The notes under the pieces: generated by a model
What the model was told of the DNA's origin: nothing
Databases searched by the model: none
Seen by the model: only the letters and a program-made list of their open reading frames with translations
Shown: piece after piece, positions 12,405-48,471 of the stretch
Layout: each line of letters opens with the position of its first letter
Numbering within the stretch: the stretch's first letter is position 1
Program-made: the position numbers and the translations under genes
Assembly (NCBI GenBank): GCA_029834535.1
Contig: JAQMWT010000509.1
Span: 1 to 49,492, forward strand
DNA length: 49,492 nt
Direction: 5' to 3'
From: Chrysophaeum taylorii
Lineage: Eukaryota > Sar > Pelagophyceae > Pelagomonadales > Pelagomonadaceae

Positions 12405-13570
12405 TTCAGGCGACAAACCGTGGAGGCACTTAAGTTTATATTCGTCAATGGAAACGTCCGCTTCTTGGACCTTATATTCGTCAGGACCAACAATGGCTGG
12501 TGAATTATAGTTTAGCGACGTTGCGGTTTTACCTTCTCTTCGGTGACGATGCCTATGCTGACGGACAGCGGACCCACCGCAGCTATGGTAGCAGTTAGTA
12601 CGCGACAGAACGTACAACCGCCTCAATTCTCGTACGAGTCTGAGCCAGTTGACTCCGTCGAACGTCTCCCTTTTGCGGATCAAGCGGAGGATGAGATCAC
12701 TCTCGATGAGATAGCGAAAGAACAAGCTGACGGATTACTACTCGAACGTCGAGCGGATTTTTGTGCGTCTCAAGACAAAAAAGCGAGCCCAGGAGACCAC
12801 CCACAGTCTCGCGGTCAAGCAGTTGCTGGAAATAGACATCATAAAAGCTTGTGCTAAGGGCAAGGTATCTGTGCTGCACGTGGTGGAAGCTTGATTAATG
12901 GTCATGAAATTGGATACATAGGATTTCTTAGTCACTGCAGCAGTATGTTGAAAGTTAGTGTCCAACATAAGGGATTTAATATCGGCAACGAGGAGCGAAA
13001 GGTGCTTGTACAGAGTGCTGTACGTACCGGCAGGCAGAGCATTGCTGAGCATGTCACAGCAAAGGTCATGGCGTAGAGACAATAGGAAGGATTCCTGTTG
13101 TTTGGTGTGGTTGTTAGCACGAATCATCTCCGGTCGAGTGGGGTAGCGTAATTTCCCGCTGCGAGGGTCGAGTAAAATAATATTGGCATACCCTCGGACG
13201 GTTGGCAATGGAGCAAGCATTGAGTGGATTTTAGAGCCGAGTTTGCGGTCACTTCCACGAAGGTACCCTATATAGCGACTGTGAGATAGGTGATGATCTT
13301 CCAGAGCAAAAAGAGAATCCTTGTAATTGAAAGAGTTGTCGGTGGCCTTGTAGGTAAGGCAGCCAGGCATCACGAGAGCGCATCTGGACACGAGGTTTTG
13401 TATGGCGGTGCCATAGGTGGTAGCGGAGCCAACTTGGGGAAGGGCTTGGACTATCCACAAGTAACCCATAAACGGCTCCAGATATATGGACCTGTCCCGG
13501 TGGCGGGGGATGTCGGAAGCAGTGAACGTATACGTGGTTCCAAAGGCGTTGATGGGGGTCAATTCAAGAG
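12405..13570 (-). pseudogene. copia fragment: methyltransferase C-terminal half joined to pre-RT region
   Basis: The minus-strand frame at 13562-12738 encodes about 275 residues that align with residues 389 to about 640 of the methyltransferase ORF at 24252. Shared features include INAFG.TYTF, SRY[IL]G[YF], SGDRK-type GSDRK, P.PT[VI]RG[YF]AN, RANN, LLSL..DLCCD and NA[LI]PAGTY. By eye the two are roughly 40-50% identical, so this is an older or different family member. Motif IX is weakened (RPEMIRANN) and motif X is SNALPAGTY. After a break, 12545-12405 encodes VGPDEYKVQEADVSIDEYK, which matches the linker before RT at about 28320-28390. Integrase is missing between them, so an internal deletion has occurred. 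Confidence 0.75.
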
Positions 13571-16075: not shown

Positions 16076-16099
16076 ACGAGCCACGGCGTCTCGTGCGTA

Positions 16100-16414: not shown

Positions 16415-16489
16415 CCAAGTGCCTCTCGGAGGCTGGAAAAGTGCGTCAAATCATGAATATTCCGTTTGTGTAGTACAAGTGCAGGCCAG

Positions 16490-16860
16490 TAAGTTCACCT
16501 AGTCCCAATCTCTAACCCCCGCAAGTTCACCTGTTCCCGTTAAGTTCACCTAGTCCCAATCTCTAACCCCAGTAAATTCGGCGTAAACCCAATCTCTAAC
16601 CCCAGTAAGTTCGGCGTAAACCCGCACCCACTCACCCCACTCTCCTTCGAGCTCGTCGCTCTCACCCCCGCCAATCTAAGCTGCCTTGATCCGCACACGC
16701 CGCTAAGCTTTGAGTTTACTCTAAAAGCCCCAGTAAGTTCACACTTGGTCTCAGTAAGTTCACCTGGTCACTAAGTTCACCTAGTCCCAATCTCCAACCC
16801 CAGTAAGAGATTGGTTCCAGTAAGTTCATCTGGTCCCAGTAAGTTAACCTATAGTGCGCG
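16490..16860. repeat. minisatellite with GTTCACCTAGTCCC units
   Basis: Variable-length repeats of AAGTTCACCT[AG]GTCCC, AATCTCTAACCCC and CAGTAA run through this stretch. The inverted partner lies at 18350-18660. It is the outer part of each inverted-repeat arm. Confidence 0.75.
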
Positions 16861-16861
16861 T

Positions 16862-17452
16862 GTAGACGCCGGGAGGGGGCTTATCGGTATTGCGCAGCAC
16901 GTGTGGAGTAGGGTGGAGTCGTCGACCAAGAAGAGGATATCCTCGGGGTTGCCGATCGACAGAGAGCCACGTAGAGCTGGACGTGGCAGAAGACGGGCTT
17001 CGCCAAGAGGACACCGACCTCGCGGGGCGTCTGGCCCTGGCTCTTGGTGATCGTTTGGCGTCGGCGGGCCTTAAGGGATACAGGTTGGAGGAGCCTCGGT
17101 GACAACGACACGATCGATCATGTATCTGGTACCGTTGCAGTGGCCGTGCGACGGGTCGAGGTTGCGAAGACTTTAAGCTCGCGATCAAAGTCAGCATGCC
17201 GTTGGTTGTCAGGGAGTTCAAAACTCGACTTTCGAGAGCGAGGCGTCGTCTTCCGATCCAACCTAGTCGGCCGAAAAGAACTCCGACGCCTCGTCTCCGG
17301 GAAAAAAAGGCCGCGGTCATGCGCGCGTTGTCAGCATCGACAACATCGTTTCGACGGGGCGTGAGAATGGCGCGCTGAAAGAGCCGCCGCGGGTCGTGGA
17401 AATAGTCTGCGAGGTCGCCGTAGACGGCTTGGAGGATCAATGGCCGGCTGGC
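16862..17452 (-). pseudogene. Helitron/Pif1-type helicase C-terminal fragment, left arm
   Basis: Read on the minus strand with frame changes. It starts ILQAVYGDLADYFHDP, then RAILTPRRNDVVDADN, which resembles the AILTP-x-N-x-x-V-D-x-x-N motif of Helitron helicases, then FLNSLTTNGM-like sequence, and finally TITKSQGQTPREVGV followed by VQLYVALCRSATP. The last two are the TKSQGQT and QLYVALSR motifs (V and VI) of Pif1-family helicases, with Ser to Cys in the latter. Only the C-terminal third of a helicase is present. There is no Rep domain. At least three frameshifts make it a pseudogene. Confidence 0.75.
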
Positions 17453-17488
17453 TCGCGGGCCTACCTGATCCTTACCCTAAATCGAGGG

Positions 17489-17716
17489 ACAAACACCAAC
17501 ACACACCCACCCACATCCTTCATGCTCCCCACACACAACCCCCTCTTAGCAGTCGACATTTAAAGACAAACACCACAAACCTCTTAGCAGTCGACATTTA
17601 AAGACAAACACCACAAACACACCCACATCCTTCATGCTCCCCACACACTCCCCCCTCTTAGCAGTCCTAACTACTAATCGACAGATGTTTGTCTGTCTGT
17701 TTGTTTGTCTGTTTGT
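17489..17716. repeat. palindrome spacer with clustered retroelement 3' tails and GTTT/GTCT microsatellite
   Basis: Three copies of the tail CTCTTAGCAG (near 17534, 17581 and 17657) occur here. The first two are followed by TCGACATTTAAAGACAAAC, and the third by a GTTTGTCTGTCTGTTT microsatellite. CCACATCCTTCATGCTCCCC precedes two of them. These look like successive, strongly 5'-truncated insertions of the retroelement of 9650-10366 into one microsatellite target. Confidence 0.6.
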
Positions 17717-17751
17717 CCCTCGATTTAGGGTGAGGATCAGGTTGACCCGCG

Positions 17752-18325
17752 AGCCAGACAGTGATCCTCCAAGCCGTCTACGGCGACCTCGCAGACTATT
17801 TCCACGACCCGCGGCGGCTCTTTCAGCGCGCCATTCTCACGCCCCGTCGAAACGATGTTGTCGATGCTGACAACGCCGCGCGCATGACCGCGGCCTTTTT
17901 TTCCCAGAGACGAGGCGTCGGAGTTCTTTTCGGCCGACTAGGTTGGATCGGAAGACGACGCCTCGCTCTTTACAGTCGAGTTTTCAACTCCCTGACAACC
18001 AACGGCATGCTGACTTTGATCGCGAGCTTAAAGTCTTCGCAACCTCGACCCGTCGCACGGCCACTGCAACGGTACCAGATACATGATCGATCGCGTCCTG
18101 TCACCGAGGCTCCTCCAACCTGGATCCCTTAAGGCCCGCCGACGCCAAACGATCACCAAGAGCCAGGGCCAGACGCCCCGCGAGGTCGGCGTCCTCTTGC
18201 CCAAACCCGTCTTCTGCCTCGTCCAGCTCTACGTGGCTCTCTGTCGATCGGCAACCCCGAGGATAAACTCATCTGGGTCGACGACTCCACCCTACCCCAC
18301 ACGTGCTGCGCAATACCGATAAGCC
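17752..18325 (+). pseudogene. Helitron/Pif1-type helicase C-terminal fragment, right arm
   Basis: The inverted partner of 16862-17452. A 123-residue frame from 17761 carries ILQAVYGDLADYFHDP, RAILTPRRNDVVDADN and NSLTTNGM. After a frame change TITKSQGQTPREVGV and VQLYVALCRSATP follow (18140-18260). The fragment begins at the same residue as the left arm and as the 10380 fragment, next to the same GTCTGT-type microsatellite, so all three derive from one truncated template. It differs from the left arm by few bases and has an extra Ala codon in the DADN region. Confidence 0.75.
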
Positions 18326-18349
18326 CCCTCCTGGCGTCTACACACGCAC

Positions 18350-18660
18350 TGTAGGTGGACTTACTGGGACCAGGTGAACTTACTGGGGTTTGCGATTGGG
18401 ACTAGGTGAAGTGAGTGACCAGGTGAAACTGGGACCAGGTGAGCATACTGGGGTTTTTAGAGTAAAGGGTTTTTAGAGTAAACTCAAAGGTTGGCGGCGC
18501 GTGCGGATCAAAGCAGCTTAGATTGGCGGAGGCGAGAGCGACGAGCTCAAAGGAGTGGGTGTGAGCTAGGTGAACTTCCTGACCAGGTGAACTTATATGA
18601 AACTTACTGGGACCAGGTGAACTTACTGGGGTTAGAGATTGGGACTAGGTGAACTTACTG
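18350..18660. repeat. minisatellite, right arm
   Basis: The inverted counterpart of 16490-16860, with GACCAGGTGAACTTACTGGG-type units and fewer repeats than the left arm. Confidence 0.75.
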
Positions 18661-18699
18661 GCCTGCACTTGTCGACATTTAAAGACAAACAAACAAACA

Positions 18700-19620
18700 A
18701 ACAGACGAACATCTGTCGATTAGTAGTAAGGACGCGCGCAAGGCCTCCATGCTCGCCGACTGTGAGACCGCTTAGTGAGAGCCCCAGCGTGCACGTTCGT
18801 GTTGGTGGCATGGGCCACACGCTCGAGTGGGATGGGCGGGAGGTCCCCCCCGCGGTTCACAAGGCGCTGAGTAAACCTTACGGGGGTCAACCTTTCAGAG
18901 ACAAATGGCTGAAAGTGTTGGCGTTCTTTAGTGAAGAGCCGGTGCTGGACGCCCCTGGAACCTTTACACGGGCGACCCCGTCGAAGTTGACGGTCGCGGC
19001 GAACGTCAAGACAAAGCTGACGCTCAAGGCGGACCCATTGTGGTCTAGAGTTTCAACGCGCGAACATCGGGGACTATCTGCCGGGTGAGAGCCACGATGA
19101 CGACAATGGCCGCAAGGACGACGAAGATCTTGATTTGGAAGACGGCGATGACGGGAGAGACGAAGAGCAAGATGGTACGGTCTACTTCGATGAGCTTGAA
19201 GTTCCTCCAGGCTTCTTGTTCATCGACAAGACGGCTTCCTATCTCCGCGAGGACGAAAAGATCCCGCTTTACGTTATACTTTGCTGCTTGGACACCTCGA
19301 CGACGACCTCTGAGAGCCATCATGGTGGTCCGGGAGGGTTGTCAAATTCAAGCCGCGGGCCCGGGTCTACAACTACGACGTTCAGTGGAACAGCAACGCC
19401 CCTTGTCAGCAGGGGCATAAACTCGATAACAATGTGGACGACAGTCGAACTCCGACTGTTAAGGCTGGTTGCTGGTGCTAGAAGAAGACACTCTCCTCTG
19501 CCTCTGCTGCCTCTTCCCGCCGACCGCTTATCCTAGATGGTGACGACGTCGACGAGACTCCTCGCCAGCGCTGCCGCATCGACGACAGCCTTTTCGACGA
19601 CTGAGGTTCGCAGCTCTCAA
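18700..19620 (+). pseudogene. unidentified decayed ORF with acidic stretch
   Basis: Two plus-strand frames (to 19088 and 19135-19536) seem to be one broken reading frame. The first carries GREVPPAVHKALSKPYGG and FRDKWLKVLAFFSEEP. After the shift comes a strongly acidic section (DDDNGRKDDEDLDLEDGD), then YFDELEVPPGFLFIDKTASY, and in another frame KFKPRARVYNYDVQW. The combination of a folded-looking start, an Asp/Glu linker and a basic-aromatic end could be a transposase of an unrecognised type or a Helitron accessory protein. I do not recognise it. Upstream is an AAAC microsatellite (18684-18705). Confidence 0.35.
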
Positions 19621-20604: not shown

Positions 20605-20609
20605 GGTGC

Positions 20610-21015
20610 TCCAGAGAGCTACACTATTATGTGTGCGACACTGGAACATTTCACACCTATCTCTAAACGAGGGGTTTCTCTCCGTAATACGGCTTTCCCT
20701 CGTTCCTCCTGTCCTTCATTCCTTACCCTTCCGCAATTATATTTTCATGACTATGAAGAACCCAGTCTGAAGCTCTTTTCCAACATGGAGTATGCCTCCA
20801 GGTGCGTACCGTCAGGTACGGGGTTTTCTGTTTAATTAACAGAGGCTTCGTTCCTCGTTGTCAGTGTAAGCGCTTCTATGGGACCTAATGTCCTTAAGGA
20901 GCTAGGGCTTAAATCCCTACCTTGTGTAGTAGCATGTGGCAAGCGGAATGGTCTGTACACGCCTAAGACTGCACGCAGTCTCTACCATGTACCCGGAGAG
21001 TGTCAAATCTCTCCA
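20610..21015 (+). repeat. 5' LTR of the copia element
   Basis: 406 bp, starting TCCAGAGAG and ending CTCTCCA (not the usual TG...CA at the start). It matches 32377-32782 over its full length. It contains the inverted repeat CGTACC(GTCA)GGTACG and a TTAATTAA string, plausible parts of the transcription start or poly(A) region. Confidence 0.9.
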
Positions 21016-21034
21016 GGTTATGGGCCCAGATGCG
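21016..21034 (+). promoter_or_regulatory. primer-binding site, half initiator tRNA-Met
   Basis: GGTTATGGGCCCAGATGCG begins directly after the LTR. Its complement reads through the anticodon loop (CCCAUAA) and 5' stem of a eukaryotic initiator tRNA-Met, not the tRNA 3' end. Drosophila copia is known to use an internally cut initiator tRNA-Met in the same way. Confidence 0.85.
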
Positions 21035-21498
21035 TAGGTGTGTCGGCCCAACTGTGTTGTACGTATAAATGGAGTGATCAATTTACGCCTGATCACGAGT
21101 ACAATGCGACAATGTGTTTGGCGGTAGTCTACTGTACATATTTGTTATGTGACGGTATATGCCCACCAGTTAATTTGGTTTGTGACCGAGTTGGGTCGGT
21201 CACTGGTCATATGCACTCGCATAGCTAATAAAATTAAAATTTTTCCTATACAAGCCGCGGAAACTTGTACGGGTTTTTCCTTCCATTCCCCAACAAAAGA
21301 CTGACTGCTCGAGAATTAATCCATTCTTCAGTCTCAAGTCATCTTGTTTAAATAGCATGCTGATTTGTTTGGTCTTGTAAATAAGCCCACGTTTAAAATA
21401 GCGTACTGTACATAGAACCCGCACTCGAGAAACCCTTCATTCTTATGTGTCGAATATGTCTATCAATCCTATAACCTATTTCTTAATAGGTCACAATC
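21035..21498 (+). other. copia 5' leader
   Basis: Untranslated leader without an ORF of note. A perfect 8-bp stem with a 6-base loop, GTGACCGA/TCGGTCAC (21181-21202), may be a packaging or dimerisation signal. The gag ATG at 21499 is preceded by CACAATC. Confidence 0.5.
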
Positions 21499-22790
21499 AT
21501 GTCAAAACAAAAGCCAATATCCACTACGGATATCTACAAACAAGAACAAATCCTCGTTGATAAAATTAACGCAGGATTGCGTTTCCAAGACAACTCAACC
21601 AAGGTGAGCTTGCAAATTGAGGTGCTTCGCAGGCATATGACAAGTCCATATGTGGACGCGTTATTCTGCTTCGATTCATATGAAGCTTACACCCGGAATG
21701 CTCCGGAGTATAATCAACTTCTTGAACAAGAAGTTGATATCATCTTCGCTCAATGGAAAGCTGAACAAGTAAACGATTTAAACTTACCTGATGAAGATGC
21801 CCTGCCTGATCATTTTAAAACTTGGCACGTCAATTCATCACATCAACTAACAGTTGATGTCCGTAATAATCTCGAACGACTTTATTACCAAGAGTCCTAT
21901 AATCTCGTTCGTCCCGAATTAAATGAGGATGTTAAACGTGTCCTCAATCTATTAGATACCCGATTCCCTAAATCAATTGTGTATGATTCATCTCTAACTA
22001 ACATATCCTTTACAGGTCTCTCTAATACCGACTGGATCAAACACTGCGAAACTTATGCTGGTTTCTTGTACACATTTTTAAACTTGGAATCACAAGACAA
22101 ACCAGCACTCGCTATGTGGCCTCAATTAAAGAAGATATATGCACTTACTGCACATCCTAATAAACTACGTGCAGTAATGCTTTTAGCTTACCATTACTAT
22201 GAGACAGTGTCTTGTACAGATGTTACTGAGCTTAAATCTCAGTTTAATCGAATGTCTTTAAATGTTAATTGGTATGCCCATGTATTTGTCGAACAACTCC
22301 TTGCTTTCCAATCTCAGGCAAAGCAATTAAATAATGATGAAGCATCAATCCAATTTAATAACTCCATAATCACTCTTAAAGCTCACGAGGAGATCTACCG
22401 TCTATATGCTAATCCCTCGGATCACGAGCGCTATTCTCAATCTTTATTGGAATGGTGTAAACTCTACGAGACACGCTCTGGGAACAACTCGATTCACGAT
22501 CCTGAATTGTTAAAGCTAGTTGATCCTAACGACGTTCGTCCGTTACTGGAATTCTTGTTAAAGATGTACAATGAAACAAAGTTTTCCTCTAACCGACGCT
22601 TGGATAAACCCGCTTCCTGGATCCCTTACATCCCTGGTACTACCGCTACCAAGCCACCTAATGTATTATTGATGGATACTTTTCATCAATCCCACGACTC
22701 TTTAAACAACGCTTACTCGTTGTTAGCTACTGTAGCTGGACAGTCTGGCTTCAACGCTCGTAAGCTTCGTAATGTAAAGCATCGGCAATT
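21499..22790 (+). pseudogene. copia gag, first part (frameshifted)
   Basis: Gag forms the particle in which reverse transcription takes place. From ATG 21499 the frame encodes a mostly helical, charged protein of about 430 authentic residues (to RKLRN near 22770), with EQEVDIIFAQWKAEQ and TDWIKHCETYAGFLY as typical stretches. After that it is read out of frame to a stop at 23019. The homologous fragment at 3648-4322 continues in frame past this point, so the break is a mutation and not a programmed shift. No Cys/His zinc knuckle is visible. The gag assignment comes from position and from the protease that follows. Confidence 0.75.
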
Positions 22791-24233
22791 TTACCTCGTG
22801 ACACGTCGCACTATCGTCCACCTTCAAATTATAACGTCAAAGGTACCAGCTTCGATCGTCCTGTCCACTCACCCTCCTCTAACCGCAATGCACGCTCTAA
22901 TACGTCTCTTATGGACCGGGCTACTTATCAAGTTGATCGTCTTCGCCACTTGTTTGGTAAATTACAAGAAGCGAATCCCAAACCCTCTACCGACTCTAAA
23001 ATGGTGCAGGAGGAAATGAAAAGCTTACTGAGCACCCTCTGGACAGCCGCTTCTCAAGCTTCGACACAGTCCTTAGATCCTGACGAAGCCACCCAAGTTC
23101 ATCTCTACTTATCTCGAGTTGATACAATGTCCAATACTATTGTGAGCCTCTTAGAAGCCGATAATGAATCTCATGTTTCAGAAGAAAAGTATCAAACTGA
23201 ATCATCTGCTCCTGAAGCGTCCCCCAGTGATGCGGAGCAGAGGGGGGCTGCTGATACAGAGAAAATGTTCCACACTTTTCTGTCCATTAAAGATAATGAA
23301 ATCGATAACATCCCTCAGCCGCTATTGCAGCATATAAATGTTAAAGCTCAGAGTGCTATCGTTCGTCGTCAAGCTCGGGAAACTTCCTCACACTCTGAGC
23401 TCCCCAGTAATCTACCCAATGAAGATAATGAAGATGGTACAGATCCCCCTGTGTTGCTACCAAAATTAAACACTGGTTTTACACTCGTCGTTGTGCCTTC
23501 CGAACAAACGCAAAGTTTCATGACACAGTACGTGTTTGGTCAAAGCTCAACACATGCCTGTTATGCAACAATGCTTAAACTGTACAACGAGTACAATTTG
23601 CCGCTAATGACTACGCCAGGATATGCTGACACATGTGCTTCTCAACATGTAATTAACTTTAAACGTTATGCTGATCCTATCCACATCGTAAAGCTACCCG
23701 AGTCCTTATCACGTGCTATCCAGACTGCTACGGATACGCAGAGAATCACACATGCTATGATTATAAGGACCGTCATTCCCGCTCTCCCAAAGCATCCAAA
23801 TGTGGGATATGTAAAGCTAGACGTTGCGCTTTTTCTACCCAAGCAAAACGACCATAACGATCCCGATCTGCACATCATCAGTATGACTCAATGGGGAGAA
23901 GATAAACTTGGTATACATCTATATGGAGTTGAATTTAAAGGACAATCATCTATCCAGAGTAAAATTGATGATAATGTCAAAATTACTTTGTTTAGACTCA
24001 GTAACCTGCTGCCAACTCTACCAATTTATTCGCTACAACAAGCAAAAGCGCGTAAAATGGAACTTCGCTCACTACAGTTCAGACTATGTGCTTTTAATGA
24101 ACAACGCGAAATGCTTAAACTATATTCCACCCTCATGGAACGCGTAATTTACGTCCCATGGCTTAAAACCATCCTGGAGTCAATGCATTCGCAGCTGCCT
24201 TACATACGCAAGCATTTCCCACCTCCCGTATGA
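22790..24233 (+). pseudogene. copia gag C-terminal part and protease
   Basis: The second frame (open from about 22800; first ATG 22911) first gives the end of gag, with an acidic Ser/Glu-rich section (about 23160-23260). Around 23610-24100 lies an aspartic-protease-like region: GYADTCASQHV, with Asp at 23628-23630, corresponds to the D-[ST]-G-A-S of copia proteases but has Cys in place of Gly. Later KLDVALFLP and HIISMTQWGEDKLGIHLYGVEF match the strands and the LLS.SQL-like element of copia proteases. A TGA at 24231-24233 ends the frame, and the same frame continues directly into the methyltransferase. The DTCAS variant also occurs in an otherwise well-kept context, so it may be functional. 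Confidence 0.7.
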
Positions 24234-26567
24234 CGCAAGGTTACCACACGTTTGCTTCACACAGTAACTTCGTCTCCTAGCCCACGAACACCTACTGTAA
24301 CTCTACTTTGCTCTGGGATGTCCACTCCTGCATTCTTGGCTTGCGCTTCTAATGACTTGCAAATCAACATCAACGTTAAAGTTCTTGTTGAGAGCGACGA
24401 CAATATCACGCACATGCTACGAAGACGTTTTGGTAATTCCATCGAAGTTTTCCCATCCCTACCTAAGTTTCTGACATATCTCCATCGAGCATCGGACGTT
24501 GAACGTGCACGATATTACACCGATATAGTGGAATTGACATCACCATGCACAAATCGCAACATAATCAATGGGAGATCCATTTCCACCTTCGAGCGTGATA
24601 TGGATGATTCCTTGTTTCCAAGTGCTCTAAGTGTACTTGAGCTTTTAAAGCCGCTTGTTCTTTTCATGGAAATGACACCACCACACTCCGCATCGTATGA
24701 AGATCATATACGAGTTGCTAATCTCATCTTCTCAACGATGCACTATACGGTGGATATATGTGACCGATTTCCATGCTATCTATGTGGAGATTATCAAGCC
24801 AGAGAAAGATGGATCCTCGTTGCACGCAAATATAACACCGGCCCTCTTTATCTGCTTTCATGGCCTAATAAACGAGTCACTTCCTTTCTGGACATTGCAG
24901 ATCATGCTAATTCCATCAGTCGCAAGTTAATAGTCGATGAACCTTGGACGCAGGTCTTTCCTGACATACCATTCGTGTCCACACCTAAAACCTACAACAT
25001 GTTCAGTCGTACAGGATCCGTGCGCTTAACTGTGACTGAGCTTGAAACCTTAACTATGCTGTTCCTTCGTCTGCACTCTAATAAAACAGTCGAACATCCC
25101 AGTCAAGATGAAATGGAGGGCATTTCCAACTTTCGCCTGGGATTCTTGACTAATTCAAGAAAACCACTTGCTTGCATGAGACCCCCTATTGAACTCAAAG
25201 CTTTTGTGCTCCTCTATAATATTATGGGACACTTATTCCCTAAATCTATCACATTACCTGTGTCCTTTCGTATTACAACTATCGAATCTAACCAACCATC
25301 TCACAGGTTATTTTTAAATAAATCATATGCTTCCTCCATCATTTACATCACTGGTGGAAGACATACACGCGGAGACATAACAGTTTATAACTCCTCTTCT
25401 AATTACCAGGCACATATAAATGCTTTTGGCGAAACCTATACCTTCCTAACACATGATGCCGGAATCGATAAGACTGCTTCTCTCGAACCTGTTACTGGTT
25501 TTCTTTGGCTTTGCCAAGCATACCATCATAATAATGAAAATAGAGACACGCGTCGTCTAGTACAAGCACTGGTCACCTATACTTCTCCTGTATTTCACGA
25601 TTCCTTTGTCTTCTACCCTCAGGAAAATCGTCTCGAATTTATCGATAAAATGTTTGCTTTAAGTGACATGCATTTGTCCCAAAGCAGATATCTGGGCTTT
25701 ATTACATCAGGCGACAGGAAGATGGGTGCCAAAGTTCATTCCATATACACTCCTACTCCTACCATTCGTGGATTTGCTAATATGCTCGTGTACGATCCAC
25801 GACTCGATCGCATTCGACACTACTCAACTCGCGAATTGGCACGCGCCAATAACTTCACAGCGTACCAAATCAATTTTCTTTTGTCTTTGTCCCCGGACCT
25901 ATGCTGTGATATAATCGCGAATGCTATTCCAGCTGGAACATATCATATAATTTATAAACATTTGTGTCAGCTTGTCTATGACTTGCGTAAATTAACGCTA
26001 TCACCATCGTTTGACCCTGATCATGCCTCTCTAACCAAAAACTATAGGTCAACCTTCTTCACAAATATATTCCCAACAGATACATCCTTATTATTACACC
26101 AGAGTTCCATTACAATGTTCTACATCTCCAATAAAAAACTCTCATGTTGTGATAATCCTGCTTCTAACCACGAACTTCCATCTTTTCATCTCGATTCAGT
26201 AGCTCATGTCTTCCTCTCTAACACCTCATCCGCAGATACATCATCTCCTACTAAAGAAAAACAAATTCCTCTTATAACGCCAAGACAGCTCCATGAGAAG
26301 CATGCGCCCTTCGATAAGAAAGTTCATGCCAGGGGCACCCTTGCATTTCGAGATGCGCAACAACGAGCTACCAATTTTCACAACATCCACCATTCTAGTG
26401 ATTCTCAAGCTATAAAAGCTGTTCAGGTTATTGCCAGTCCTGGACACCACCCATCTGACGTACCCTACCGTAAGTTCTGTGTGGATTGTACGATTCATAA
26501 AAACGCTTTCCTCATCCACACCACCTTACCAAGCAACCATCATTCGAAAAATTTTTCAACCTGGTGA
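24234..26567 (+). CDS. copia polyprotein segment: C5-cytosine DNA methyltransferase domain and integrase zinc domain
   Basis: In frame with the preceding gag/protease after one TGA; the first usable non-ATG start is TTG 24252, and residues are counted from there. C5-methyltransferase motifs occur in order. Motif I is TLLCSGMSTPAFLAC (17-31, cofactor loop), followed by an acidic VESDD (46-50, motif II). Motif IV is ELTSPCTNRN (94-103) with the nucleophile Cys99 at 24546-24548. Motif VI is FMEMTPP with Glu140. Motif VIII is GDYQARERWILVARK (Gln182, Arg184, Arg186). A target-recognition-like region spans 200-500 and ends TPTIRGFANMLVYD. Motif IX is RHYSTRELARANNF (522-535), and motif X is DIIANAIPAGTY (553-564). 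The ORF ends with an integrase zinc region (FHNIHH...FCVDCTIH). These enzymes methylate DNA cytosines at carbon 5. All catalytic residues that I can identify are kept. An independent diverged copy at 12.4-13.6 kb supports real coding. Confidence 0.85.
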   Translation, partial: RKVTTRLLHTVTSSPSPRTPTVTLLCSGMSTPAFLACASNDLQININVKVLVESDDNITHMLRRRFGNSIEVFPSLPKFLTYLHRASDVERARYYTDIVELTSPCTNRNIINGRSISTFERDMDDSLFPSALSVLELLKPLVLFMEMTPPHSASYEDHIRVANLIFSTMHYTVDICDRFPCYLCGDYQARERWILVARKYNTGPLYLLSWPNKRVTSFLDIADHANSISRKLIVDEPWTQVFPDIPFVSTPKTYNMFSRTGSVRLTVTELETLTMLFLRLHSNKTVEHPSQDEMEGISNFRLGFLTNSRKPLACMRPPIELKAFVLLYNIMGHLFPKSITLPVSFRITTIESNQPSHRLFLNKSYASSIIYITGGRHTRGDITVYNSSSNYQAHINAFGETYTFLTHDAGIDKTASLEPVTGFLWLCQAYHHNNENRDTRRLVQALVTYTSPVFHDSFVFYPQENRLEFIDKMFALSDMHLSQSRYLGFITSGDRKMGAKVHSIYTPTPTIRGFANMLVYDPRLDRIRHYSTRELARANNFTAYQINFLLSLSPDLCCDIIANAIPAGTYHIIYKHLCQLVYDLRKLTLSPSFDPDHASLTKNYRSTFFTNIFPTDTSLLLHQSSITMFYISNKKLSCCDNPASNHELPSFHLDSVAHVFLSNTSSADTSSPTKEKQIPLITPRQLHEKHAPFDKKVHARGTLAFRDAQQRATNFHNIHHSSDSQAIKAVQVIASPGHHPSDVPYRKFCVDCTIHKNAFLIHTTLPSNHHSKNFSTW

Positions 26568-26960
26568 AGCCTGGGCATGTGACGGTGGTTACGTATCTGT
26601 GCTCTCGGAATGGGGATCCTTTCGACATATCATTGTTTTCAAGTGTCTCATTTCTAAATTTCTGTTAGTGTACTTTTGTCGTAGCACTAACTCCAGCGAA
26701 TTTTGTAACGCCCTTGAGTTTGTCCGCAATTTTTGCTCTACTTATGTTCATGTACAACTAAAACAAATCTATTGTGATTCCTTTAAACCCTATTTATCTC
26801 AGCATGTTACAACCCCCTTCCGTGTGGAACATGGTATTAATATGTCCGCGTTCCCCCTTACTTACATGTCTTTAATCATGAAGTAGAAGCCGCTGTTGGT
26901 CACATAGCCACTGCCGCGTCTACACGACTCCGGCATATGCTTAATGTATCCTATAAAGGT
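26540..26960 (+). pseudogene. copia integrase catalytic core (frameshifted)
   Basis: After a frameshift near 26560 the frame to 26886 reads FQPGEAWACDGGYVSVLSEWG (first Asp, in CDGG near 26580), then HIIVFKCLISKFLLVYFCRS, and QIYCDSFKPYLSQHV (second Asp, near 26775). A further shift near 26870 gives NHEVEAAVGHIATAASTRLR with the likely catalytic Glu. This is the D,D,E arrangement of a Ty1/copia integrase, with divergent motif surroundings (CDS in place of SDSG). At least two frameshifts kill this copy. Confidence 0.75.
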
Positions 26961-27566
26961 CACCCCTAACAGATCCGGCACCACACTACCCGTGGGCTGT
27001 TATACATGCCATCCAATCGTATAATCTCCTCCCTAACGTTTCCCTCGAACGTATTTACAATAAAGTCCTAAGCCCCCAACAAGTTTTGTTAGACCAATGT
27101 AATGTTCCCCAACAGGACTACCTCTGACCTTTTGGTTCTGTTTGTTATCTGCATTTGGAACCTAGCGAATTTCACAAATATGAGCCTCGATGTCGTCCTT
27201 ACATCTACTTATGTGTGCTAATGTTATAAACCCTTTAATAACACCCCATGTTAATCATTAAGCCGATTCTGTCCTTAATCCTGAAAACGGCCAAGTCCGT
27301 GTTTCCTCTAATCTGACTTTTCCTCATCTTATTTCTAAATCTCCACCTGATTATGAACAGCATCCACCTCCAGCACCTTCACCCGACATTCCCCTCTCTG
27401 TTCACCGCACCCCCAATGATGCGGCGCAGAGGGGGGATGCTATGCCTACCGACACTGACCACGAGAGGGGACTCCTTCTTCTCGTCTCCATGCTCCCTCT
27501 CCCGTTCCCGCATGTGCTCCAGCTGCTTCTGCACCCGCTACTTCCGCCACCACGCCTACATCTGAT
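26961..27566 (+). pseudogene. copia integrase C-terminal region
   Basis: Shifted frames give PFGSVCYLHLEPSEFHKYEP and RCRPYIYLC (27125-27215), the counterpart of the FG...Y...KF.P.....FLGY element that closes copia integrases. A Pro-rich linker follows (SPPDYEQHPPPAPSPDIP). CCCCCAATGATGCGGCGCAGAGGGG at 27411 resembles the gag stretch CCCCCAGTGATGCGGAGCAGAGGGG at 23221, an internal similarity I cannot explain. In-frame stops occur. Confidence 0.6.
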
Positions 27567-28640
27567 GTGTCTTCCAACACTTTGCCACTATTACCATCTT
27601 ATCGGTCTCTCTATTCCCAGGATGTCCTACGTCTCACCCGTGGTCCTCATCACCCTCAGCCTCGTCGCAAAACCAATCTCAAGGATGTTCTTACTCGTAT
27701 TGCCTCGCCTACTGTTGCCGCTTATAAACAAGCCGGTGGTACGCTTGCCGACTTCAAGTATGACCTCTCCAAGCAGTACATAACTTTCTGCGACCCCACC
27801 CTCCACTCCCTTCATCTTGCTCATGGCATCCACTTGACGGCTATACCTCCAGAGGAAGAATTTACACCATCACTTCATCACCATGTGCACCAAGCGATTT
27901 CACAGTTCTCTTCAGTTATGTGCCATAGGAGCCATAGCCACCCATCGCCTGATGCTCCTCATGTTCACTTCTGCGACGACGTCAACCTTGCAGACTTTCA
28001 CCTTCCTCAAGCTCTCGTTCATTTAATTTCTGAACATGCTCACGCCTTTCAAGTTCCTCCCGCTCAATATGTTTATGCTTTGTTCACGCCCCACTCCATT
28101 TTGGATCATAATGACGCTTCTTATGGTGCCTCCGAGCCTCATCTCTCCGCCATCGAAGACTATATCACCGTGCAATCGCATTACATTGAGGCCCACCTTG
28201 GTGATGCTCCTCTACTAGTTGTTCAACTCGTCGAAGATCCCGATCACGCTCATCTGCACGATAATGTCGCTTCTTACGCAATTACTCATCTGACGACGAC
28301 TCATGACCCCAGCACGGTTGGTTCGGACGAATACAAGATTCAAGCCAAAGATATCAAAATTGATGAATATGAGTTGAACTGCCTCAAAGGTCTCTCAGAC
28401 GCTGATCGCAAAGCTTATGTTGCTGCCATCTCCAAAGAGATTTTTGATATTGTTAAGTTTGGCTGCTTTAAACTAGCGCTGCCAATGGTCAACTCAAAGC
28501 CTATTGACACCCGCCTCGTCCTACGTATAAAAACCAACGCTGCTGGTCAGTACATTAAACATAAAGCACGCCTGGTCCTACGAGGATTCTTAGCCTCTCT
28601 GGGCACCGATTTTTCAACACATTCAGCCCTATGGCACAGC
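27567..28640 (+). pseudogene. copia linker and reverse transcriptase N-terminal part
   Basis: From ATG 27567 about 350 codons are open. The first 250 residues are a His/Pro/Ser-rich linker, longer than usual for copia. The RT starts near VGSDEYKIQAKDIKIDEYE, with ISKEIFDIVKFGCFKLA (the W...M..E...L..N.TW..V counterpart) and KHKARLVLRGFLASLGTDF (the KARLVA+G+ motif). A frameshift at about 28625 follows; the next motif, SPMAQLTGIRCVLALAA, is in the other frame. The element at 12405-12545 has the same linker end. Confidence 0.75.
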
Positions 28641-28653
28641 TTACTGGCATCCG

Positions 28654-29305
28654 TTGTGTTCTGGCGCTAGCAGCTCATCTGCGACTTCCGTCTACCATGT
28701 CGACGTCCCTAACGCTTTTGTTCAAGCTCCCATCGATTCTCATGTCTATGTCAAACTGCCACAAGGCATTTACCTTCTCGATCCCGAAGATACTAAATAC
28801 CAAGGCCGTCGTCTCCCAAAGCTACTTAAATCTCTCTATGGATTACGTCAGAGCCCTGCCCTTTGGAATCAAACCATAAACGGCTTCTTTGATTCATTAG
28901 GCTATACACGATTTCGAACAGACACATGCATTTACGCTAAAGTCCAAGCTGACGCTACATTTCTAATTTGCACGCTCTCAGTAGACGACGTCGTCATTAC
29001 TTGCACTTCGGAAACTCTACGTCGTGAGTTCCAGCAAGCCCTGAAAAAGGAATACTCAGTCGACACCTTCGAGGAAGTCCATACTCTCTTAGGCATGCGC
29101 ATAACGCGTACAACTGATGGTTCTATATCACTGGACTGTCAGGCTAAACTTGATGCATTGTTCGAAGAGTACCCCATTTTAATGCAGTTACGTCCCACTT
29201 CCACACCGATGTCACCATCAACCACGTATAAAACTGGAGAGCCATCTTCTGATATGGACAAGTTTATCCTTCATACATTCTCCACTCTACTCGGCAAGCT
29301 CACGT
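28654..29305 (+). pseudogene. copia reverse transcriptase catalytic part
   Basis: This frame has YHVDVPNAFVQAP (first catalytic Asp), KLPQGIYLLDPED, LLKSLYGLRQSPALWN (LKKALYGLKQ motif) and TLSVDDVVITC. The last is the YVDD box with Ser in place of Tyr (near 28978-28995), followed by LLGMRI and the thumb. The order is that of a Ty1/copia RT and the catalytic Asp residues are kept. The frame is lost near 29300, where the copy in the right palindrome arm has about eight more bases and stays open. Confidence 0.85.
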
Positions 29306-30133
29306 TTGTCCTGTCGCCCTGATATATCCCAAAGTCTTAGTCGTTGCTCTCGAGGAATGCATAATCCAGCATTTCTACATGTTCAAGTACTAACAGGAAC
29401 GCTCCGCTACTTGCGCAAGCCCGAAAATCGCAATCTTCGCCTCTGGTACTACTCTGGTTCTTCCGCTCTAATGGACCATCTTCGACTTCTTATCGGTAAT
29501 CGTACTGACATGGCCACCATGTTGGATTACACTAAAGAACAAGTAAATTCAGGTAATTTTGATCCACTGGTCGCGTTCGTAGATGCCGATAATGCACCCT
29601 CTTATGAACAAGACCGCAAATCTACAACCGGTTACGCTATCTTTTTGTTTGGTTCTCTCATCACTTGGAAGTCTAAGTTGCAGCCTATTACAGCTACTTC
29701 TACGCATGAGAGTGAACTTATCGCCCTTAATATGTGTGCCGATGATGTGGTCTGGTTACGCAAATTGTTAACGGAAATGGCATTCGCTATAAATCCTCAC
29801 TTCTATCTCCGCCAACCTTCAGGGAAAGACTTGCTACTAGATTATGATGCTCACGACAATCCCCTCACATCGGACATGTCGTTCATACGTAACAGTCCTA
29901 TACTTGGCGACTCTGCCTCTGCTATTCATTTATCTAATAATCCCGACAGTGCGACTAAGGCCAAAGCTATCAGCACACGCTGGTTCCGTATTCGCGACTA
30001 CGTACAGTTAAAACGCATACGTCTACATCATGTTATCGCCGATGGATTTACTAAACCCTTTGGAGCTCCGCTCTTCAGCAGATTTCGCACGTTACTCGGC
30101 TTACAACAACCCATAGCTCAACAAGATGGTTAA
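29306..30133 (+). pseudogene. copia RNase H
   Basis: RNase H removes the RNA template. The motifs are the standard ones for Ty1/copia: CRPD...LSRC, FVDADNAPSYEQDRKSTTGY (first Asp), LITWKSKLQPITATSTHESELIAL (Glu), ILGDSASAIHL (Asp) and ADGFTKPF at the end. In the right-arm copy the stretch before ADGFTKP is five residues longer and keeps the family motif HHVSGTQNIADGFTKP; here an in-frame deletion near 30033 has removed it. The stop at 30133 is followed by 116 bases and then a separate ORF. Confidence 0.88.
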
Positions 30134-30249
30134 TCCTTACCCTTCATTATGTCCGAAATGACTTTAAACTAACCCTGCTATGTAAAGGAATACTGGCTCG
30201 CTAAAATGTGAAATGCAATGAAAGATGTGATGTGGATATTCTTTTTACG

Positions 30250-32259
30250 ATGAATCCCACTAAAAACAAAGATGCTGCGAGCCGGCGCCATTCTACCCTG
30301 AACCGTGGTCGTGGTGGTGCACTGTCACTATCCCCACCTTTTAATGCTCTAACTCCAAGCGTTGCACCGACTAGTTCCCCTAATCGGAAGCATCAAACCT
30401 ATTTGTCGGTGGCTCAAGGACATCAATCTACGCCCGTTACGCCTAAGGCACCCAAGGCAACTGTCCAACAACCGTCTAAATCGCAAACATCAAAGTCTGA
30501 GTATTTCCTGCTTAAACATTGCAAATTTGACGCACTTGCGATGATGTCAGGGAATATCTCTGCCCTTGGTGCGTCCCCGCCGAATTTTCTCATCCCTCAG
30601 CATAAGGATCCTCAGTGTTGGCTTAAGTCTTTGCAGCAGCTGCTTACCGAAGCACAACAGACAGACTTTGTGGACGATATCCAATATCTTAGTTCATTGC
30701 TGTGCGTCAAAGCAAAGCGCATTCGGAATGCCCCCGCTATATCTCCTAATGAAGGTATTCGCTTTCACCGCTTTCCACCCATTAAAGGGGTTGTCAAAGT
30801 ACATGTGGCGTGTACAAAGTGCTACAATAAAACTGATATGCCGGGTACACCCCTTGTGCTCATCATCTGTACTGAAGATGAGCTTAAAACTGACAGGATT
30901 CGCCAAATTATTGAGGATCATCTCGCGTCTGAGCAACATGCATCGCACTGCTTCGATGTACCGCGCCCTTTCTTTCTGTTGATTTGTGTGATGTGCAACT
31001 TGTCGAACCATGGGATAGCGTTAATTCGCAATAATCAGCATCCCTTCCAACTCTCTTGTTATAATGATCCAGCTGCCCACATAAGAGCTATAATCCTCCG
31101 CCTTGGAAAGTCCATTGCTATTAACAAGCTGCTCAAAGAGGCAATCATGCAGACTGCAACATCCCTTAACGTTGATGCTTCTAAAATTCTCGTCAACCCT
31201 GACGCTAACACCATGCTCTTACTGCAGCTGCCCTTCATTTCGAGTGTAAATCTTGAGATTCTTGTAGCAGCTTGGTCTTTGTTACAATCGGCTGAAGATA
31301 AAACCTGCGTAGTTACCAATCCTGAGGAGTTACTTAACGTGCTCATCGAACGCTTTGTTAACGATGTTTCTCATCAACTTGACGCAACTTCTTCCGAGAC
31401 GGTACCGCCAATGCTACACTACTTTTGCCAACTTCCACCTAATCAACAACTAGCATTTAAGAACGTGTCAATCCAAGTTGGCTACCCATCCCATATCATT
31501 GATACTTTCTATAATAATACCCCCTCTGAAGATGTGTCACCAGCGCCGATCGATAATCCACCCGCTGAGCCCACGCCAGATAAAGCTAACGACAATATGG
31601 CTGAATCTTTACACCAATTAAAAGAAGATATTCGGTCTTTATCCTTACGTCTCACTAACACCGAACAGCAATTGATGGCACGAGAACATCAACTATCGCT
31701 TGCTCTAACGTCTCTCACACAGATGCAAGAAACCTACGAAACCCTTAATACTCAAGTGACCGAGAACATTAAACATGTCTCTTTGTTAGATAACATTTCG
31801 TCGAGTCTTCAAATGCATCAGAACACCATAATACCGACCTCTGCTGTATTTGTCCATATCATTTCTCGGTCGCTTATCTCGTCTATTGGACAGCTCCCTC
31901 CAGATACGTATAATGAGGCACAGCGAGTTCAAATCGACGCAGCAGCTCATCACCTCCACACAGCTATGTCTGATGCACATGATCGTGTTATTCCTGCATT
32001 GGATCTACACGCTCTTACACCAGATGCTGCTATGTCTTTCCTTTCGTCTGTCATGTCACCCTTGGTCACCTTGAGTGATGCAATGACTACGCACAATACC
32101 AACACTGCTAACGACCTATCCTCCGATGATCATAATTCGTCTTCTCCAGAGTTAAAGGAACTGGACGATAATAGCGAGGATGAATTGGACCACACATCTG
32201 ATGTTGTGGATACCGATACAGCTTCTTTGCGCAACATCACAACACGCTCGACATCATAA
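30250..32259 (+). CDS. extra 3' ORF of the copia element, unknown function
   Basis: An uninterrupted 669-codon ORF after RNase H, in another frame. ATG 30250 is chosen over an upstream in-frame GTG (30208). The start is basic and Ser/Pro-rich (SRRHSTLNRGRGG; about residues 1-90). A folded-looking middle (90-430) includes CTKCYNK and RAIILRLGKSIAINKLLKEAI. A coiled-coil-like stretch runs from about 455 to 530 (LKEDIRSLSLRLTNTEQQLM), and the end is acidic (residues 640-669). I see no signal peptide, no membrane anchor and no furin-like site, so it does not look like an envelope protein. Sireviruses and some other copia elements also carry a 3' ORF, but similarity is not evident. A broken copy lies at 46352-48338. 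It might be a structural, nucleic-acid-binding or targeting protein. Confidence 0.75.
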   Translation: MNPTKNKDAASRRHSTLNRGRGGALSLSPPFNALTPSVAPTSSPNRKHQTYLSVAQGHQSTPVTPKAPKATVQQPSKSQTSKSEYFLLKHCKFDALAMMSGNISALGASPPNFLIPQHKDPQCWLKSLQQLLTEAQQTDFVDDIQYLSSLLCVKAKRIRNAPAISPNEGIRFHRFPPIKGVVKVHVACTKCYNKTDMPGTPLVLIICTEDELKTDRIRQIIEDHLASEQHASHCFDVPRPFFLLICVMCNLSNHGIALIRNNQHPFQLSCYNDPAAHIRAIILRLGKSIAINKLLKEAIMQTATSLNVDASKILVNPDANTMLLLQLPFISSVNLEILVAAWSLLQSAEDKTCVVTNPEELLNVLIERFVNDVSHQLDATSSETVPPMLHYFCQLPPNQQLAFKNVSIQVGYPSHIIDTFYNNTPSEDVSPAPIDNPPAEPTPDKANDNMAESLHQLKEDIRSLSLRLTNTEQQLMAREHQLSLALTSLTQMQETYETLNTQVTENIKHVSLLDNISSSLQMHQNTIIPTSAVFVHIISRSLISSIGQLPPDTYNEAQRVQIDAAAHHLHTAMSDAHDRVIPALDLHALTPDAAMSFLSSVMSPLVTLSDAMTTHNTNTANDLSSDDHNSSSPELKELDDNSEDELDHTSDVVDTDTASLRNITTRSTS

Positions 32260-32367
32260 TTAAATTGTCCTGTTCTGTTGTTGTTTGTTCCACTATTCAC
32301 TGTTCTCATGTATATTGCACAAGTTCCGCTTCAAGAACGTCTGAAATGCATAAACCGTTTTCATACG

Positions 32368-32376
32368 TCGAGGGGG
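32368..32376 (+). promoter_or_regulatory. polypurine tract of the copia element
   Basis: GTCGAGGGGG lies directly before the 3' LTR start (T at 32377), where plus-strand priming is expected. The core CGAGGG[G/C]G is shared with LTR-X. Confidence 0.7.
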
Positions 32377-32782
32377 TCCAGAGAGCTACACTATTATGTG
32401 TGCGACACTGGAACATTTCACACCTATCTCTACACGAGGGTTTTCTCTCCGTAATACGGCTTTCCCTCGTTCCTCCTGTCCTTCCTTCCTTACCCTTCCG
32501 CAATTATATTTTCATGACTATGAAGAACCCAGTCTGAAGCTCTTTTCCAACATGGAGTAGGCCTCCAGGTGCGTACCGTCAGGTACGGGGTTTTCTGTTT
32601 AATTAACAGAGGCTTCGTTCCTCGTTGTCAGTGTAAACGCTTCTATGGGACCTAATGTCCTTAAGGAGTTAGGGCTTAAATCCCTACCTTGTGTAGTAGC
32701 ATGTGGCAAGCGGAATGGTCTGTACACGCCTAAGACTGCACGCAGTCTCTACCATGTACCCGGTGAGGGTCAAATCTCTCCA
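32377..32782 (+). repeat. 3' LTR of the copia element
   Basis: 406 bp, the partner of 20610-21015 with about ten differences. It is followed by the target duplication GGTGC (32783-32787), after which LTR-X copy A resumes. Confidence 0.9.
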
Positions 32783-32787
32783 GGTGC

Positions 32788-33990
32788 GTGAGCTGAGATG
32801 CCGTTGTGGAGAATATCCGGCCTGAAACGCGTGGGGTCCAGTGCGGGAAATCGACAATGGGGATAGCGGAAGGAGAGTGCGAGTTCGCTGGGGTCATAGT
32901 GCGTGAATGCAGTAGAGCCAAGGGCGATGGAGGGGTCTGGCATACTGGTGGCAGCCTCAATGGCGGAGGTGCGGGGACCAGAGCGGCGAGTGCAAAAGCG
33001 GCTAGGGTTGCTCGTAGACGTGCAGTGCATGCGAAGATGCGGGCCGTACGTCCTCGAATGAGGGGTGACGTGCCGAGCGATAGGGCGCTGTTGAGAGAGG
33101 CATCGTGCGTGGCAATTCTGCGTATAGCGGTATAAAAGTGTGTATGGGCGGCTTCACCGGATTAGCCTATCTGGACCATACACTTCTCGCTACATAAAGC
33201 TGTAGTAACCGCCACACTGCGTGTCTGCGGTGGAGCCGACAGTTGGCGTCAAACATTCGTCGTGCATCCCTGTTATGCGAATATGCGGAAAAGAGAGGCT
33301 CGAGTATAGCGAGTCGGTGCAGTGCGCGTGGAGAATGTCTCCTGAGAGCGCAATAACGATTTTCTGGAGGCAGCGTAGGCGTGTGGCGTCCAGAAGAGGG
33401 CTACGAAGCTGACATAACGGACCGAAGTGGTCGCAATATGAGCGCACAGTTTGGGTGTGATCGGGGCGTTCACAACTCTCGAAATCTGTGTCCGTGACTA
33501 TGGCCATGGTGGAGGCTGGCCAAAAACTTGGTCGCGGTGAGACAGAAGGGTCGGCATCCGAAAGGAGTGCGTCCTCTGACTGAGAGTTGAAGAGCGGGTG
33601 AGCATGTGCTGCGATTTATGCATGTGCGGTGACATCCATTGAATCGAAACATGGTGATCGCAATTGGGTCCGTGCAACTTGCTGGGCATAGTCATCAAGC
33701 GCATCCGGCCGGGGAAGGTGGATGGCGGGGGAAGTAGCTGAGCATCAGTGCGTGCCTGTCTGCAGAGAGAGAAGACCGCGAGGTGGGACTAGCGTTGAAG
33801 TGTTCGGGCGCGGCTGATCGAGAGATATCGATTAAGGTAGGAGCACCTGGCGAATCCGAGCTGATACCTGCAGGTGCGTTGAGTTCCTGCGGGTATTGTG
33901 ACCTTGGGACCGTCGACAGCATGTCGTGTCCCTGTGGATGCGACATAGCAGGGGCATTGTTGATGGCGCATGGATCAGGTAGCGCCGCGG
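32788..33990 (-). pseudogene. LTR-X copy A, upstream coding piece
   Basis: Minus-strand frames carry PQGHDMLSTVPRSQYPQELN, APAGISSDSPGAPTLIDISR and SFGCRPFCLT-type sequence at 33500-33970, matching copy 1 (PQGQDTLSTVPRSTYSQALT, APAGISSDSPGTPALFDISR). Further downstream come FESCERPDHTQTVRSYCDH and SFRYPHCRFPALDPTRFRPD. Several shifts and stops exist. At about 33990 the similarity to copy 1 ends, so the 5' part and LTR are lost. The right-arm copy is at 44691-45834. Confidence 0.65.
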
Positions 33991-48338: not shown

Positions 48339-48471
48339 CGTGAAAAGAATATCCACATCACATCTTTCATTGCATTTCACATTTTAGCGAGTCAGTATTC
48401 CTTTGCATAGCAGGGTTAGTTTAAAGTCATTTCGGACATAATGAAGGGTAAGGATTAACCATCTTGTTGAG

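Follow-up and report, generated by a model that had tools for sequence, protein, structure and literature searches.

A probable, strongly diverged C5-cytosine methyltransferase domain in the Pol region of Ty1/copia retrotransposons from Chrysophaeum taylorii

A Ty1/copia retrotransposon in the genome of the pelagophyte Chrysophaeum taylorii (GenBank assembly GCA_029834535.1) carries, between its protease-like segment and its integrase, a domain that is almost certainly a strongly diverged C5-cytosine methyltransferase (C5-MTase) and a fixed part of Pol in this copia lineage. We analysed positions 1 to 49,492 of contig JAQMWT010000509.1, a stretch of 49,492 nucleotides that we call the window. 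The domain, with a spacer leading to the integrase, occupies an open reading frame (ORF) of 771 amino acids at 24252–26567 on the plus strand, and its residues are numbered from 24252. An initial annotation of this DNA had described one open frame between protease and integrase and had proposed that it encodes a C5-MTase. The frame is confirmed, and the assignment is now supported by significant profile–profile matches.

Evidence for the methyltransferase domain

Along the plus strand the domain shares with C5-MTases of the Dcm/HhaI kind (Pfam family PF00145, DNA_methylase) the order and register of motifs I, II, IV, VI, VIII, IX and X. Motif I (LLCSGMSTPAFL, 24303–24338) aligns with the motif I block of these enzymes and is followed by motif II (VLVESDD, 24381–24401). 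Motif IV (DIVELTSPCTNRN, 24522–24560) contains Pro98 (24543) and Cys99 (24546–24548), aligned with the catalytic Pro-Cys, and motif VI (LVLFMEMTPPH, 24654–24686) contains Glu140 (24669), aligned with the glutamate of ENV. Motif VIII (GDYQARERWILVARK, 24786–24830), in which the glutamine of QARER is at 24795, aligns with the motif VIII block. A large variable region (24849–25748) stands in place of the target-recognition domain and is followed by motif IX (RIRHYSTRELARANNF, 25809–25856; glutamate at 25833) and motif X (IIANAIPAGTY, 25911–25943; asparagine at 25920, proline at 25929), both covered by a profile–profile match. The initial annotation had placed all of these motifs correctly except motif II, which is added here; Cys99, on whose alignment with the catalytic cysteine it had staked its claim beforehand, does align with that residue. 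Unlike the Dcm/HhaI enzymes, the window domain has PCT in motif IV, EMT in motif VI and about 300 amino acids between motifs VIII and IX.

Conservation was read from 33 copies of the window's family (family A), the window's own included; 30 came from the ORF search and three (L049, L054 and L055) were added. Glu47 of motif II and Cys99 are present in 33/33 copies, Pro98 in 32/33 and Glu140 in 31/32. In motif VIII the glutamine and the first arginine are kept in 32/33 copies and the second arginine in all 33; the motif IX glutamate and the motif X asparagine are each kept in 31/32 and the motif X proline in 32/33.

The most telling comparisons are those between profiles. An eight-row alignment of family A with a sister family, C, was compared with 14 C5-MTases, 12 of them bacterial and two from the host; this set was filtered from 29 loci and the two host proteins, with a motif-bearing frame of more than 220 amino acids and at most 70% identity to any row already kept. 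Over the whole length the score was 36.2 (expectation value, E, 8.7e-4), and none of 150 column shuffles scored as high. The N-terminal core, comprising motifs I–VIII, scored 35.1 over 165 columns (E 2.4e-4), with 0/500 column shuffles as high; the best shuffle reached 25.1 and a reversed profile 12.0. The segment with motifs IX and X scored 27.95 over 54 columns (E 0.001; 0/300 shuffles as high, best 25.8). The middle region between motifs VIII and IX gave no C5-MTase match (13.9, with 178/300 shuffles as high), as would be expected if it were a target-recognition domain. In the unguided alignment SPC fell on the Pro-Cys, the motif VI glutamate matched the glutamate of ENV, and the motif VIII block was covered by QARERWILVAR. 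When the families were compared singly, each without shuffles of its own, the core scored 25.1 for family A (E 0.008) and 34.9 for family C (E 2.2e-4); much of the core signal therefore stems from family C.

A third copia family, B, matched the same 14 enzymes far more strongly (64.8, E 7e-8, 0/150 shuffles as high, best 28.3). When the A and C alignment was searched against family B, five of ten B rows scored 4.4–10.8 bits; the highest of 1000 shuffles reached 3.6. The search in the other direction, from B to A and C, and the comparison of A and C with a set of six DNA methyltransferase (DNMT) sequences did not separate from shuffles, and the thin profiles of A against B and of A against the host's two DNMTs were not significant.

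Searches with single sequences gave fainter signals. The initial annotation had proposed a Pfam profile check, and its outcome was divided. An N-terminal piece of 220 amino acids had PF00145 as its sole Pfam family at E<=10 (E 0.22, residues 117–197), at 11.3 bits against the 22 required by the family cut-off; a cut of the ORF of 621 amino acids and a C-terminal piece had no Pfam match at E<=10. Among 12 family A copies PF00145 was the commonest match (7/12, best E 0.0074), followed by Beta_helix_2 (4/12, best E 0.082) and two further families found once each. For family C, three N-terminal pieces were scanned: two had PF00145 as their sole match (E 0.22 and 0.11), and one, whose source copy has a broken frame, had no Pfam match. 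A longer piece and a C-terminal piece likewise had none. A search of solved structures returned no DNMT at E<=10 for the window's family, and for family B its best match was M.HhaI (E 0.084). In searches for homologous proteins, no candidate out of 5422 reached E<=0.01 for the window ORF, and none of 7995 scored reached E<=0.001 for family B. An alignment search with Dcm and DNMT sequences gave 7998 matches, of which the 120 listed were all Dcm-like and too alike to help, and no relative was found in the viral contigs searched.

Several observations speak against the assignment. The full ORF of 771 amino acids had no Pfam match at E<=5, and pieces of the window and family C domains had no NCBIfam match. 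One of the 150 whole-length shuffles came close to the real score (35.4 versus 36.2). Two AlphaFold2 runs on single sequences produced models too uncertain to use (mean predicted local distance difference test scores of 33.5 and 37.5). Motif VI reads EMT instead of ENV. Finally, the catalytic residues are kept in 97–100% of family A copies, against a mean identity to the window of 97% across the core, and so they do not stand out within the family.

Sister families, selection and the upstream stop codon

We searched the genome assembly, 70.8 Mb in 697 contigs, for further copies. The ORF at 24252–26567 has at least 63 matches (58 of 1786 candidates scored), which constitute family A, and the family A reverse transcriptase has at least 151 (150 of 1552 candidates scored), these counts being lower bounds in which some rows are pieces of one copy. 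Among the 63 matches listed, 20 span the domain, from residues 1–3 to at least residue 752, without a stop. Contigs C10 and C297 have near-identical matches at nearly the same places, and the assembly may therefore hold duplicates. Copies returned by the reverse transcriptase search at 100% identity and missing from the domain matches were considered as close relatives lacking the domain; this was rejected, as both that were fetched (L054 and L055) carry it.

PF00145 itself has 57 matches genome-wide. Two lie in host-like genes, which by reading of their sequences encode a DNMT2-like protein of 360 amino acids (L001) and a long DNMT5-like protein (L002); eight of the 57 (L001–L008) were read, and further host genes may sit among the remainder. 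Together with 84 genome matches to the chlorophyll-binding family, these two genes point to an algal host. The other six, L003–L008, share one common domain, with PF00145 E values of 5e-12, 1e-9 and 4e-9 in the scanned loci L003, L004 and L006, and a DGGAS protease-like motif lies upstream of the domain in L005, L006 and L007. A single frame at locus L042 encodes DGGAS, the PF00145 domain and an integrase. These loci represent family B, copia elements whose PF00145 domain is a plain one, scoring over the family cut-off, and sits in the same slot as the domain of family A; it has at least 79 genome matches (68 of 830 candidates scored), with members 64–96% identical to L042. In NCBIfam its domain matches the dcm superfamily at 7.5e-11 and 2.9e-8, under the cut-off of that model. 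The integrases of families A and B are homologous (phmmer 2e-19; 25% identity over 236 amino acids by BLASTP), and their methyltransferase domains are barely alignable, with a weak collinear stretch over motifs IX–X (2.5 bits).

Family C is also represented in the window, by a minus-strand fragment at 12741–13658 that aligns at 43% identity with the family A domain in its C-terminal half, and has at least 129 genome matches (129 of 986 candidates scored). Its whole domains are 48% identical to that of the window and keep PPC in motif IV, EMTPPH in VI and QSRER in VIII. Methyltransferase-bearing copia elements thus form at least three old families, with many copies, in one genome. The initial annotation had described the domain as another capture within copia pol. 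Its location in pol stands; a recent event peculiar to this element does not, because two sister copia families carry the domain in the same place, and its association with copia is therefore old.

The domain is under purifying selection close to that on the integrase. In the diverged copies (the window, L036, L038 and L049), at synonymous divergences (dS) of 0.5–2.3, the ratio of nonsynonymous to synonymous divergence (dN/dS) was 0.02–0.05 for the core and 0.07–0.10 for motifs IX–X; for the middle region it was 0.09 in three of four pairs, the fourth being saturated. The large variable region (24849–25748) gave 0.08–0.23. Nearer pairs were looser, at 0.08, 0.20 and 0.27 for the whole domain. 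Over 11 pairs the core ranged from 0.02 to 0.24; the integrase gave 0.03–0.10 in the eight pairs for which it could be computed, and the spacer between the two 0.12–0.30 in eight. Of the six nearest pairs, five have a higher value for the core than for the integrase; selection on the two is therefore similar, and not stronger on the domain.

An in-frame TGA followed by CGC (24231–24233, plus strand) separates the protease and methyltransferase parts. UGA-C, above all UGA CUA, is a leaky stop context. TGA-C is found in frame at this junction in 29 of the 30 copies from the ORF search, the exception (L010) having a local indel, and also in L054, L055 and L049; L049 differs from the window at a dS of about 1.9. 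The corresponding junction of family C has TGA CTA in frame in three of the five loci compared, from a set of six; of the exceptions, L085 is frame-broken and L087 has other sequence. The first in-frame ATG after the TGA of family A lies within motif I. The retention of TGA-C in 32/33 family A copies suggests that the domain may be made by stop-codon read-through as part of Pol. Two points tell against this: family C has an ATG just before motif I, so that initiation there is possible, and no stable RNA structure was found 3' of the TGA in five folds from families A and C (z from -1.04 to 0.44). A stimulating RNA structure behind the stop is not present in every known case of read-through. In family B the frame at L042:994-4818 has no stop at that junction. 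Overlapping frames precede the family B protease part, after a gag-like ORF, at L042:994-1030 and L044:3792-3828, as if family B relied on frameshifting in place of the family A stop codon.

The element and its surroundings in the window

The element spans 12.2 kb (20610–32783) and is flanked on both sides by GGTGC (20605–20609 and 32784–32788), a target-site duplication of 5 bp. The long terminal repeats (LTRs), at 20610–21016 and 32377–32783 on the plus strand, are 98.0% identical, with eight mismatches in 409 aligned bases, two flanking bases being counted in. Immediately 3' of the 5' LTR is a sequence like a primer-binding site (GGTTATGGGCCCAG, 21017–21030), which we take to resemble the initiator-tRNA half-molecule primer site of Drosophila copia.

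The order of the coding parts, all on the plus strand, is Gag-like, protease-like, methyltransferase domain, integrase, reverse transcriptase, the place of RNase H and an additional ORF; the Ty1/copia assignment follows from the position of the integrase upstream of an RVT_2 reverse transcriptase. The gag-like ORF (21499–23019) has no Pfam match, and its frame is broken near the 3' end in the window copy; in copy L054 a single continuous frame runs from gag to protease. The segment at 22773–24230 comprises the 3' part of gag and a protease-like part with DTCAS, recognized by its motif; the ORF at 22911–24230 had no Pfam match. Family A has DTCAS in this segment where D[ST]GA is usual: ADTCAS occurs in 27/33 copies and ADACAS in one, and the motif searched for was unmatched in five. 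The integrase part (26431–26886) matches PF00665 at E 6e-4, under the family cut-off, and lies in another frame in the window copy. The reverse transcriptase (28654–29322) is of the copia type (RVT_2, E 4e-26). The region 29306–30133 is in the place of RNase H by position, and no RNase H model matched it. The ORF 3' of it (30208–32259; 683 amino acids) has the look of a coiled coil and no convincing Pfam match. The window copy is damaged outside the domain, with the gag, integrase and reverse transcriptase/RNase H stretches in changing frames; the methyltransferase frame is open.

Other parts of the window hold further repeats. The right end of the window holds a second, broken copy of the 683-amino-acid ORF (46359–48380, minus strand) next to family A reverse transcriptase sequence, and a gag-region fragment of the family lies within a longer, unrelated-looking frame at 3971–4337 (minus strand). 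Direct repeat blocks of 81–87% identity, about 23.6 kb apart, flank the element (14021–16076 and 37594–39711). A large nested inverted repeat at 16475–18733, with arms of 288, 221 and 128 bases and 94–97% complementarity, resembles a fold-back element. A frame of 804 amino acids at 36312–38723 (minus strand) has no Pfam match, and one of 436 amino acids at 1364–2671 (plus strand) resembles by eye a retroviral-type integrase of another element.

Proposed function, alternatives and significance

Taken together, the position in Pol, the purifying selection and the kept catalytic residues speak for an enzyme that methylates nucleic acid of its own element within the particle. As far as the sequences allow us to judge, we hold it somewhat more probable than the reverse that a Pol-level enzyme made by read-through acts in this way. 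Gag-protease synthesis would end at the TGA-C, and occasional read-through would yield a Gag–protease–methyltransferase–integrase–reverse transcriptase product, so that the enzyme would be made in the amounts of Pol and enclosed in the virus-like particle. There the domain would bind S-adenosylmethionine and use Cys99, Glu140 and the motif VIII arginine, all of them kept, as other C5-MTases do. The element's own cDNA, or an RNA/DNA intermediate, would be methylated before or during integration, and the new copy could then pass as resident DNA or be protected. Such a benefit would have kept the domain under purifying selection while two families drifted to 48% identity. Self-methylation of retrotranscripts has been proposed for DNMTs borne by DIRS elements, in the excerpts of the source on which we draw (PMC5890265).

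Base composition lends this proposal little help and weighs against it. C-to-T type differences, counted over ordered pairs of 30 copies, had a rate of 0.0719 at CpG and 0.0599 at other C, a 1.2-fold difference; the highest of the 16 contexts was CCG (0.1275), with few sites. For the element the observed/expected ratio of CpG was 0.93, against 1.02 for the whole window. So weak a CpG signal would fit another target sequence, efficient repair, an RNA substrate or absent activity alike.

An RNA substrate is the basis of one alternative. On this view the domain would act like DNMT2, an enzyme that methylates tRNA, and its target would be RNA cytosines, for instance in the genomic RNA or in the tRNA that primes reverse transcription. 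We judge this unlikely. The particle contains both RNA and the tRNA primer, which, with the weak CpG signal, would suit such an enzyme, and a LINE-borne DNMT (LINE, long interspersed nuclear element) has been reported, in the passages available, as inactive on DNA in yeast, with RNA suggested instead (PMC5890265). Against this, the long stretch that separates motif VIII from motif IX occupies the place of a DNA target-recognition domain, and no specific likeness to DNMT2 was found, the best hhalign anchor being a Dcm-like row.

Absent activity would correspond to a methyltransferase fold without catalysis, kept for nucleic-acid binding or as a partner of the integrase; this too is quite unlikely. 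The full domain is no longer recognized by family models, motif VI is EMT, and catalytically inactive adenine methylases are known in DIRS1-type elements, according to excerpts of PMC3537659. A pseudoenzyme would not readily account for the near-invariance of Cys99, Glu140 and both motif VIII arginines in family A, however, nor for family C, which at 48% identity keeps PPC, EMTPPH and QSRER.

It is improbable that the enzyme is directed at the host, methylating host chromatin or rival elements and, for example, steering or hiding integration sites. The many copies, even as lower bounds, could load the cell with enzyme, and the passages of PMC5890265 used here discuss how DNMTs of Symbiodinium elements may be linked to the methylome of their host; the position in Pol and the preceding stop point instead to a low-level, particle-borne enzyme. 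That an unrelated copia spacer domain bears the motifs by accident is very improbable: single-sequence and thin-profile searches do not separate the domain from shuffles, one whole-length shuffle nearly equalled the real score and family A alone reaches 25.1, but two segments match in order where the middle does not, and a recognized PF00145 domain occupies the same slot in family B.

Beyond methylation of the element's own nucleic acid, the broader proposal is of a copia lineage in which a C5-MTase, too diverged for family models, is a core and vertically inherited enzyme of Pol expressed by UGA read-through; we regard the case for it as evenly balanced. Work by Iyer et al. in 2011 is said to concern DNMTs linked to reverse transcriptase and may include similar cases. 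In the excerpts of de Mendoza et al. (2018; PMC5890265) on which we draw, DNMTs are described in LINE, DIRS and Gypsy elements, those of DIRS elements giving CG methylation in yeast, and Symbiodinium Copia is stated to lack a DNMT. One of these elements, KnitGypsy-Dnmt3 of Klebsormidium nitens, is likewise an LTR element with a cytosine methyltransferase in Pol under purifying selection (Ka/Ks, the nonsynonymous-to-synonymous rate ratio, <0.2 there). It differs in being Gypsy and not copia, of DNMT3 type, present in few copies and recognized by PF00145 (PMC5890265). SymbioDIRS-Dnmt3 and SymbioLINE-Dnmt of Symbiodinium resemble our families in having many retroelement copies with intact DNMT domains, but are DIRS and LINE elements (PMC5890265).

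One sentence in PMC12344493, with PMC5890265 as its reference, places DNMT3 members within LTR Copia and DIRS elements. It names Copia as the carrier, yet the cited paper, in the parts used here, describes Gypsy, and the passages of PMC12344493 consulted describe no element. Beyond that sentence, excerpts of the literature (PMC9998398, PMC3145265, PMC12477816 and PMC3537659 among them) report no copia element with a cytosine methyltransferase. LINE, DIRS and Gypsy elements that carry a DNMT are already known from published work; copia would be a further class of retroelement.

We consider the finding to be of interest on three counts. Firstly, cytosine methylation is a usual means by which hosts silence retrotransposons, and an element family that keeps a methyltransferase of its own under strong selection suggests that the parasite, too, gains from the mark or from the enzyme. 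Secondly, the domain survives beyond the reach of Pfam. Thirdly, its frame is open in many copies, so that the role of the enzyme is directly testable in yeast. If a lineage with such a core Pol enzyme exists, its counterparts in other genomes would so far have escaped notice, and retrotranscript self-methylation would be an ancient replication strategy and not a late capture.

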